A stretch of DNA of 64,000 nt from Croceibacterium aestuarii (GTDB lineage: Bacteria > Pseudomonadota > Alphaproteobacteria > Sphingomonadales > Sphingomonadaceae). The DNA is taken from NCBI RefSeq assembly GCF_030657335.1, contig NZ_CP131039.1, positions 2,806,501 through 2,870,500 of the forward strand. The letters are read 5' to 3'. Position numbers and translations under genes: made by a program. Under the pieces are notes generated by a model. That model saw nothing but the letters and a program-made list of their open reading frames with translations. It searched no databases and was not told the origin of the DNA. Positions within the stretch are counted from its first letter, which is position 1. Every line of letters begins with the position of its first letter. Below are positions 44,003 through 45,407 of the stretch, in pieces.

Positions 44003-44098
44003 CCGTCGTCACCCTGAACTTGTTTCAGGGTCGATCTCTCAGCCCGCGAAGTCGGTCGAGAATGCACGATCGACGCTGAAACGAGTTCAGCACGACGG
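44003..44098. repeat. Imperfect intergenic inverted repeat
   Basis: CCGTCGT...CTGAACTTGTTTCAG (44003-44034) is mirrored by CTGAAACGAGTTCAG...ACGACGG (44070-44098); arms of ~30 bases differ at a few positions. Repeats with CCCTGAACTTGTTTCAGGG are, from memory, dispersed in many sphingomonad genomes, like REP/BIME elements. It lies between two convergent genes and could end both transcripts. Confidence 0.7.
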
Positions 44099-44130
44099 GT
44101 TTGGGAGCAGGCCGCACTCGGAATGCACCA

Positions 44131-44778
44131 TCATAACCTTCCCCCCTTCCACACCACGCGCCCGACCACGTCGACATCCTCCATCGCCACCTCGACCGGT
44201 TCGTAGGCGGCGTTCTTGCTGATCAGCCGCAAGCGGCCCGGCGGCACCGCCTGGAGCAGCTTGACGTGCAGCGCTTCGCCCAGGCGCACGACGTGGACGC
44301 CTTCGCGGAACGGGCGCGGGGTGCGATCGACGAGGATTTCGTCGCCGTCGCGCAGCAGCGGATCCATCGAATCCCCGGCGACGCGGATGGCCGACAGGTT
44401 CCTGGCGTCGAGCCCGTTCTCGCGCAGCCATCGGGGGGAGAACAGGAAGGTGTCGAAGGCAATCTCCTCGGCCCCGGTGGCGCCCGGCCCGGCCGAGGCC
44501 TCGAGCGCGAGCCGCGGCACCTCCACCCAGCCCGAGAGGCGCCCCGCCCCCTCGTCCGGAGCGCCGAGCTCCGATTCTTCGACCCCGAAGAAGTCGGCCA
44601 ATTTCCTGCGGTCGCCTTCCTCGAGCTTGCGCGGGCTGCCCTTGGTGACGAATTGCTGCAAGTAGCTGGGATTGCGGCCGATCATGCGGCTGAGCGCGGC
44701 AAGGCTGGTCCCTCGTTCGGACGCCAGCCGGAGCAGCTGGGAGCGGTGCTTGGCGGAATTTTCCCGAGAGTCGCTCAT
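44131..44778 (-). CDS. XRE/S24-family CI-like repressor
   Basis: 215 residues from the ATG at 44778 (MSDSRENSAK); a start 5 codons upstream lies in operator sequence. Residues ~12-60 are an HTH (SLAALSRMIGRNPSYLQQFV). The C-terminal S24/LexA-like peptidase has the nucleophile in VAGDSMDP (Ser147) and Lys183 in HVKLLQ. An Ala-Gly pair at ~96-97 (LEASAGPG) could be the self-cleavage site. Such proteins repress until RecA-induced self-cleavage. No phage genes are next to it. The two operator-like palindromes start 6 bases upstream, so self-control is likely. Confidence 0.85.
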   Translation of the reverse strand: MSDSRENSAKHRSQLLRLASERGTSLAALSRMIGRNPSYLQQFVTKGSPRKLEEGDRRKLADFFGVEESELGAPDEGAGRLSGWVEVPRLALEASAGPGATGAEEIAFDTFLFSPRWLRENGLDARNLSAIRVAGDSMDPLLRDGDEILVDRTPRPFREGVHVVRLGEALHVKLLQAVPPGRLRLISKNAAYEPVEVAMEDVDVVGRVVWKGGRL

Positions 44779-44783
44779 GTATT

Positions 44784-44799
44784 TCCTATACACGTAGGA
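44784..44799. promoter_or_regulatory. Operator-like palindrome 1
   Basis: TCCTA-TACACG-TAGGA: 5-bp inverted repeat, six bases before the repressor start codon. It matches site 2 in 18 of 20 bases when flanks are included. Probably bound by the S24 repressor or its small neighbour. Confidence 0.7.
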
Positions 44800-44803
44800 T
44801 TTT

Positions 44804-44819
44804 TCCTAGACAAGTAGGA
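44804..44819. promoter_or_regulatory. Operator-like palindrome 2
   Basis: TCCTA-GACAAG-TAGGA, exactly 20 bases (two helical turns) from site 1, in the 100-base space between divergent genes. Same face of the helix, so cooperative binding of two dimers is possible. Confidence 0.7.
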
Positions 44820-44878
44820 TTTCGCGCGCGACGAATCGCGGGCCGAGTCGCCGGCTCGATCAGGGAAAGGAGTCGCCC

Positions 44879-45070
44879 ATGCTGATCCGCAAGATCGAAG
44901 TCTTTCTGCGCCACACCCGCATGCCCGCCACCAAATTCGGCCGTCTCGCCGCGCGCGACCCGCGCTTGGTGCTTGACCTGCGCAAGGGCCGCACACCGCG
45001 CCCGGCGATGGAAGAACGGGTAGAACATTTCATGAACGAATATCGGGAGACCCCGCATGCATTTCACTAA
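44879..45070 (+). CDS. Small Cro-like HTH protein, divergent from the S24 repressor
   Basis: 63 residues with AAAGGAG 6 bases before the ATG. Sequence MPATKFGRLAARDPRLVLDL has the spacing of a helix-turn-helix, with basic residues around (RHTRMPATK, RKGRTPRP). A single short DNA-binding domain facing a CI-like gene recalls Cro of lambdoid phages. No known family name. The next gene starts inside its last codons (ATGCATTTCACTAA), so both are co-translated. Confidence 0.65.
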   Translation: MLIRKIEVFLRHTRMPATKFGRLAARDPRLVLDLRKGRTPRPAMEERVEHFMNEYRETPHAFH

Positions 45071-45407
45071 TTCGCCCCCTCCGCCGCGCCCGGTGCGGCG
45101 CTCTCCGGCCGTGAAGCTGCGCGAGCAGGTTCTCGCCCTCGCCGATGGACCCGCGGCGCTCCTGGCCCACGAGGAGAAGGCCTGGGCCAGCGCGACCTTC
45201 GCCGGCACGCGCCATCGCCTCGAACTGGCGTTCGAGGGAGACGAGGCCGTGCAAGCGGGAGAGAGCTTCATCGCCTTTCTTCCCGAGCACGAATTCGCCG
45301 TTCCCCGGCAACTGGTCGCCGATGCCGCGGTCGTCGCGGTCGATCACCGCCTCGCGCCCGAACCGCGCATGACGGTCAGCTGCGAGCTGCTGCTGCTCGA
45401 CGAATGA
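45057..45407 (+). CDS. Conserved protein of unknown function, coupled to the Cro-like gene
   Basis: 116 residues, ATG 14 bases inside the previous gene. Pro-rich start (SPPPPRPVRRSP), then a helix (KLREQVLALADG) and a beta-rich domain of ~70 residues (HRLELAFEGDEAVQAGESF, ELLLLDE). No export signal. It seems a regular partner of the S24/Cro-like pair by position; role unknown. Confidence 0.65.
   Translation: MHFTNSPPPPRPVRRSPAVKLREQVLALADGPAALLAHEEKAWASATFAGTRHRLELAFEGDEAVQAGESFIAFLPEHEFAVPRQLVADAAVVAVDHRLAPEPRMTVSCELLLLDE

Follow-up and report, generated by a model that had tools for sequence, protein, structure and literature searches.

The locus examined here, carried in a 64,000-nucleotide stretch of the Croceibacterium aestuarii chromosome (hereafter the window), raises the question of what a CI/Cro-like pair of divergent genes does on a host chromosome, and by what it is controlled. 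An S24/LexA-type repressor gene was found opposite a gene for a 63-residue helix-turn-helix (HTH) protein, which overlaps a third gene (gene 3) by 14 bases, and 100 bases separate the HTH open reading frame (ORF) from the S24 start codon (Table 1). This opposed arrangement and its gap, given in a preliminary description of the same DNA, were confirmed from the sequence and its ORFs. No phage gene was seen beside the locus in the window, as that description had also stated; domain scans of the two neighbours gave a match to FAA hydrolase for one and only weak methyltransferase models for the other, and an ORF farther along the window is presumably cysteinyl-tRNA synthetase-like. An inverted-repeat-like sequence, CACCCTGAACTTGTTTCAGGGTC, lies with a looser partner at 44005-44100, in the gap that separates the S24 gene from the methyltransferase-like one, and looks to be of the REP type. 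No paper on the locus was found in an abstract-level search of largely open-access literature.

Table 1. Genes and predicted control elements of the locus, in window coordinates.
Feature	Coordinates	Strand	Details
S24/LexA-type repressor gene	44131..44778	-	215 aa, stop included; ATG at 44778; from ORF list and domain scan
Small Cro-like HTH gene	44879..45070	+	63 aa, stop included; from ORF list and predicted structure
Gene 3 (third gene)	45057..45407	+	116 aa; alpha-beta-beta-alpha-beta-beta fold; from ORF list and model
O1 palindrome TCCTATACACGTAGGA	44784..44799		over predicted S24 -10
O2 palindrome TCCTAGACAAGTAGGA	44804..44819		strongly conserved putative operator
Predicted S24 promoter	44785..44813	-	-35 TTGTCT (44808-44813) in O2; 17-nt spacer; -10 TATAGG (44785-44790) in O1
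Predicted HTH-operon promoter	44807..44835	+	-35 TAGACA (44807-44812) in O2; 17-nt spacer; weak -10 GACGAA (44830-44835)
Three GANTC sites	44833..44874		starts at 44833, 44845 and 44870
LexA-box-like GAACATTTCATGAAC	45023..45037		within HTH codons EHFMN; 19 bases before gene 3 ATG

The S24 protein matched Peptidase_S24 (E 2.2e-18) and a phage repressor, the matches to HTH models being weak, and the A-G cleavage site, the serine (in GDSM) and the lysine (in VK) were kept in 81 of 81 S24 sequences, that of the window included. It is predicted to be a CI-like repressor of the self-cleaving type, with an HTH and a Peptidase_S24 domain. It resembles repressors in 380 phage records, the top-ranked with 35% identity, and many of these belong to Pseudomonas phages such as DMS3 and D3112, which we take to be Mu-like. 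The HTH protein had no match in Pfam, PHROG or NCBIfam up to an E value of 1, and its AlphaFold2 model (mean pLDDT 87) aligned with HipB, 434 Cro, SinR and P22 c2 (Foldseek TM about 0.6-0.7) at E values above 1, so that only the fold class, Cro-type, is supported. The phage records searched held no match for the HTH protein or for the gene 3 product, and plasmids gave three matches for the HTH protein, all below 60% identity. With the autoprotease residues and the fold class, the CI/Cro-like arrangement proposed in the preliminary description is supported.

The same small HTH domain was also seen at the N-terminus, or close to it, in long proteins (~300-520 aa as fetched), presumably methyltransferase-like, at five loci from other alphaproteobacterial families (L045, L046, L055, L057 and L058). 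At six loci (L042, L044, L051, L054, L056 and L059) it appears to occur in tandem copies in one protein, and four of these (L042, L051, L054 and L059) adjoin S24 genes.

The two palindromes between the divergent genes, O1 and O2, have centres 20 bases apart, and the 20-mers at 44782-44801 and 44802-44821 are identical at 18 of 20 positions (17 of 20 in the registers starting at 44780 and 44784), in agreement with the preliminary description. The pattern TCCTA-N6-TAGGA with up to one mismatch was found at three places in the window, where 0.19 would be expected and none of 100 shuffles reached three. The search for other copies that the description had proposed returned, for the exact pattern, only O1 and O2 in the whole 3.35-Mb chromosome.

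Conservation of O2 was examined in two sets of loci. In the first, 80 named loci that were found by the HTH protein alone and represent the best 80 of 404 matches (Aurantiacibacter, Croceibacterium, Novosphingobium, Tsuneonella, Altererythrobacter and others), O2 was exact in 64 and off by one to four positions in the remaining 16. In the second, a search of 149 family genomes, O2 was found with up to one mismatch at 111 places in 109 genomes, compared with 17 for the reversed control, and 40 genomes had no such place, which, like the 16 inexact named loci, was counted against the main reading set out below. It was single in 107 of the 109 genomes, suggesting that the switch has hardly any other targets and is mainly self-regulating; the second places in the other genomes (L203 and L226) have none of the three genes and appear to be chance matches. 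A wider O2 regulon in the window's own genome was considered and rejected, as a looser pattern with up to two mismatches gave 38 forward and 37 reverse places, the reversed control giving 158 and 159. With zero mismatches, the looser pattern matched only O1, O2 and a paralogous gene pair described below. In Novosphingobium-type loci with a changed operator centre, which perhaps form one clade, a few positions of the HTH protein are changed, whereas the S24 protein is hardly altered.

An alignment of 68 of the fetched loci described below was anchored on O2 and the loci were selected by O2 at up to one mismatch, thus the invariance of O2 and its -35 hexamers there is by construction, and conservation declines to either side in the flanking columns. 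On the plus strand, TAGACA is followed after 17 bases by a hexamer with A at position 2 in 62 of the 68 loci, though in 22 of these a LexA box in the leader possibly contributes to this A. The minus strand has TTGTCT, followed after 17 bases by a hexamer starting with T (75%) and A (79%). A scan of the locus for consensus sigma-70 promoters and terminators found nothing. On this alignment, the -35 hexamers of the two divergent promoters seem to overlap within O2. In the window, transcription of the S24 gene would start near its ATG, making a leaderless mRNA possible. As O2 covers both predicted -35 hexamers, a repressor bound there should silence its own gene too, which predicts autorepression and not a lambda-type toggle. 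Transposase genes, presumably IS1595-like, were observed at nearly the same place just behind O2 in three species (L081, L082 and L127), where they seem to separate the -35 of the HTH promoter from its -10.

In lambda, CI stimulates transcription from its own promoter, and lambdoid regions share with this locus a divergent repressor of the self-cleaving type, a small HTH protein and common palindromic operators. The preliminary description had suggested a bistable or SOS-linked switch. In a bistable switch of the lambda type, the S24 and HTH proteins would be mutual repressors with unlike preferences for O1 and O2, and two heritable states would result. Divergent CI/Cro-like genes, a Cro-type fold class and palindromes 20 bases apart would suit such a switch, as would an O1-like repeat (CCTA-N2-8-TAGG), found in 16 of the 68 loci where shuffling gives 0.14. 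However, the repeat is missing from the other 52, there is no sign that S24 activates its own promoter, and either protein on O2 should shut both promoters. Whereas a lambda-type switch has several conserved shared operators for opposite action of CI and Cro, the locus here has one main operator over both -35 hexamers and a LexA box, and is chromosomal and vertically inherited, with no adjoining phage genes in the window. Bistability is thus unsupported and we regard it as unlikely, and the conservation of both palindromes in relatives, which the description had made a test of its proposal, holds for O2 and only in part for O1.

The locus occupies a constant chromosomal position in bacteria of one large family. 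Among 396 genomes of the order, 300 had the HTH protein, 299 of them in the window's own GTDB family, 14 genomes of which lack it. Its profile was further found in 25 of the other 380 genomes of a class-wide sample, with a clear divergent S24 gene at eight of the 25 loci, and gene 3 was present in five of 385 class genomes, all of the window's own family. In tblastn searches, S24 and gene 3 were found at all 80 named loci. When 72 of the 111 O2 places were fetched, mostly one per Sphingomonadaceae genus and with one HTH half in addition (73 loci), O2 was adjoined by S24 at 70 of the 72, by the HTH gene at 68 and by gene 3 at 66, all three being kept at 66. The comparison across relatives proposed in the preliminary description therefore favours conservation of all three genes, and the pairing of the third gene with the Cro-like gene, also noted there, is borne out. 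Genes that we take from their sequences to be PlsX-like, FabH-like and MBL-like flank 63, 58 and 65 of 67 loci, respectively. Counts over related genomes are not mutually independent, but syntenic flanks and conservation together give the appearance of an old, vertically inherited locus. Domestication from a phage, raised in the preliminary description, may have taken place, but if so it was long ago. That the locus is an inert prophage remnant, as the presence of relatives of all three proteins in phages or prophage contigs might suggest, is most improbable given that sequence, operator and position are conserved across the family.

The codons of the HTH gene contain, just upstream of gene 3, a perfect GAAC-N7-GAAC. 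The alphaproteobacterial LexA consensus is given as GAACN7GAAC or GTTCN7GTTC (PMC3091678) and the Caulobacter box as GTTCN7GTTC (PMC12700426). In the window alone the pattern is not significant (two found, 1.7 expected). The exact 15-mer was present within the HTH ORF in 75 of the 80 named loci, chosen as the best of 404 matches, and in all 75 the codons of the motif were GAA for E, CAT for H, TTC for F and AAC for N, the corresponding ratios in the rest of the HTH gene being 152:118, 84:54, 192:43 and 58:54. In the five named loci without this inner box a residue of EHFMN differs, and one has a box in the leader instead. In the O2-chosen set of 68, the box is inner in 24, in the leader in 22, in both positions in none and in neither in 22; the lack of overlap would have a chance of 5e-6 if the loci were independent. 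The leader boxes, roughly +23 to +40 relative to O2, fall within the HTH promoter and have varied spacers, so that they are not explicable by coding constraint. Overall, an exact box is carried by 46 of the 68 O2-chosen loci and 76 of the 80 named loci, and its absence from both positions in 22 and four, respectively, was counted against control by LexA. Within 500 bases of O2, GAAC-N7-GAAC was found in 46 of 69 loci, compared with two for an N6 control, four for an N8 control and four for GTTC-N7-GTTC. Among the S24/HTH pairs outside the family, one of eight (L054) has a LexA-type box nearby. We take the conservation of the box, its frozen codons and its two alternative positions as good sequence evidence for LexA control, and the link to the SOS response suggested in the preliminary description, which had missed the box, is supported.

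The leader is also marked by GANTC, which we take to be a CcrM-type methylation site. Of the 68 loci, 62 have the motif at a distance of 16-80 bases from where O2 begins; shuffles give 14.1 +- 3.5 with a maximum of 26, and seven other split patterns give four to 15. In control windows, GANTC was found in 3 of 68, 15 of 67 and 1 of 68. This conservation suggests that expression depends also on cell-cycle DNA methylation.

For the gene 3 product, the AlphaFold2 model (pLDDT 91, pTM 0.77) was closest in fold to an RcGTA-particle chain, 6tba_4A (E 2.5e-4 in Foldseek; Z 11.0 in VIA-align, with an rmsd of 2.8 across 100 residues), followed by many phage neck and terminator entries and also PilO (Z 9.7). 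This chain is, we assume, the tail terminator of RcGTA. The idea that gene 3 encodes a tail terminator or a component of a GTA was considered and rejected: the likeness to 6tba_4A, Listeria antigen B and lambda gpU is in fold only, the hhalign match to a tail terminator profile is weak (probability 2.9%, E 0.015; controls 0.24 or more), and none of 15 gene 3 family members matched PF11367. Nor is the context tail-like. Gene 3 does not lie among head-tail genes in the window, nor do its relatives in L295 and L305, the two of 20 viral loci with gene 3 relatives that were checked with Pfam and in which the relative precedes a Mu-Gam-like gene. The phage relatives looked at adjoin Gam and terminase genes and not tail genes, and in three viral loci (L297, L304 and L305) an HTH relative is upstream of the gene 3 relative. 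Of the 20 phage relatives, 19 were examined for a LexA box within 800 bases upstream and none had one, three of the 19 having shorter flanks; this was counted against the main reading. Gene 3 probably encodes a phage-related effector acting on DNA metabolism or phage development.

The fold of gene 3 bears on a further alternative, in which the S24 protein would, like RogA of Caulobacter, repress an activator that turns on a GTA. Of the chromosomal S24 repressors found to have been studied, RogA comes nearest (PMC9632790, PMC11150451; further background in PMC3338782 and PMC6473078), and it is described as an S24/LexA-like alphaproteobacterial repressor with very few targets, among them the two-gene operon gafYZ, and with homologues across the class (PMC9632790). 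By that description, with which the comparison was made, RogA has no catalytic residues, whereas they are intact here, and it (CCNA_00080) is encoded apart from gafYZ (CCNA_01111-01112), controls the GTA and targets GGAA-N4-TTCC, an operator different from the almost private one of this locus (PMC9632790). Although one Phage_capsid match was obtained in the window's own genome, PF11367 had none there, and despite the resemblance of gene 3 to a GTA protein we consider a RogA-like role very unlikely.

A paralogous divergent S24/HTH pair (211 and 67 aa) was observed elsewhere in the window's own genome (G000:C1:1633-2562, fetched as L142:1633-2562). Its intergenic region holds TCCTAGACTCGTTGGA in the promoter and, beside the HTH gene, GTTCCTGTTTTGTTC, which is a GTTC-N7-GTTC of the LexA consensus type. 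No gene 3 relative was matched in the 8 kb fetched, which include ORFs that are presumably AbiEi-like and HNH-like.

Taken together, we favour, at a probability of roughly 0.55, an old, vertically inherited switch of phage kinship, doubly locked by S24 and LexA and opened by DNA damage. From these sequence features we infer promoter use, binding, cleavage, methylation and effector action as follows. The S24 protein would repress its own gene and the divergent HTH-gene 3 operon through O2, and more weakly through O1, by covering both -35 hexamers. LexA would provide a second lock, binding the box inside the HTH gene and either blocking a local promoter or stopping the polymerase, and in other genera it would sit on the HTH promoter. 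On DNA damage, active RecA would lead LexA, and probably S24, to cleave themselves, releasing a pulse of the HTH protein and gene 3 product that the former, most likely Cro-like on O1 and O2, would end, with the latter probably the effector. CI-type repression combined with LexA control is known from phages, where LexA controls antirepressor or switch genes (the Gifsy phages, tum of phage 186); in contrast, both locks would here be on a host core locus, with the LexA box inside the Cro-like gene. If this is correct, a large and much-used bacterial family gains a conserved, testable damage switch, and an SOS operator hidden in codons would have preserved a protein motif for the sake of the DNA.

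The operon is also a repeated site of phage insertion. HTH relatives were found in 18 viral contigs, and 11 of them (L277-L287) are the flanks of Mu-like prophages, in which phage ends, opening with TGT or closing with ACA, are located within the HTH gene or next to it; these HTH sequences are read as host DNA carried on the contig. Complete prophages were identified in the operon of genomes G219 (duplication GCCAA, at the HTH start codon), G790 (duplication CCCGC) and G080 (duplication ATCGA). Junctions were read in L277-L287 and not in L288-L294, and six distinct ones cluster within 28 bases, between +204 and +231 as counted from the HTH start codon, with others at about -10 to +29 and +56. 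The same junction is seen in L284 and G080, L277/L278 and L279/L280 are near-duplicates, and the viral-contig junctions, having been found through the HTH search, have no denominator. A census of MuA in 193 genomes gave 3 + 7 = 10 matches in eight genomes, at the locus in G219, G790 and G080, whereas those in G818, G856 (three), G805 and G819 were not at the locus within the stretches fetched; a match in G155, on a 33.7-kb contig, was counted neither way. The census is biased, as the search started from G219 and G790 had been known in advance, leaving G080 as the only blind find (1 of 8); for a target of roughly 0.6 kb in a genome of 3 Mb, even this single find among eight is unusual (~1 in 700 if insertion were random). 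The MuA proteins of G219 and G790 share about 25% identity over a 322-residue piece, indicating two unlike lineages at the same landing site. An S24-like gene of its own is carried by the G219 prophage. The S24 gene of the locus looks intact at insertion loci where it is fully covered.

These insertions might mean that transposable phages are restricted by gene 3 or the HTH protein, so that lysogens in which the operon is broken survive or induce better. The prophages in three genomes, the further viral-contig junctions, the three IS1595-like insertions just behind O2 and the intact S24 gene fit this explanation. However, six junctions within 28 bases look like target choice and not like selection for loss of function, and in Citromicrobium phage phiA is reported in one 40-bp zone of a single hypothetical host gene in all 24 lysogens (PMC12486242), so that a phage-limiting role has a low probability in our view. 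Hotspots of transposable Pseudomonas phages near other elements are known (PMC5977238). Returning to the damage switch doubly locked by S24 and LexA, we tentatively propose that a LexA operator in the codons of the Cro-like gene, or in other genera in its promoter, makes it family-wide, that Mu-like phages favour the operon as a landing site, insertion silencing or tapping the switch, and that the phiA zone may be this same locus. If so, a reported and unexplained phage integration zone becomes a testable host-phage interaction. One ORF of a phage at this site (L278:4960-5997) was further observed to contain both the end of a Mu portal domain (Portal_Mu, E 4.2e-8) and an anti-CBASS Acb1 domain (E 1.9e-37).
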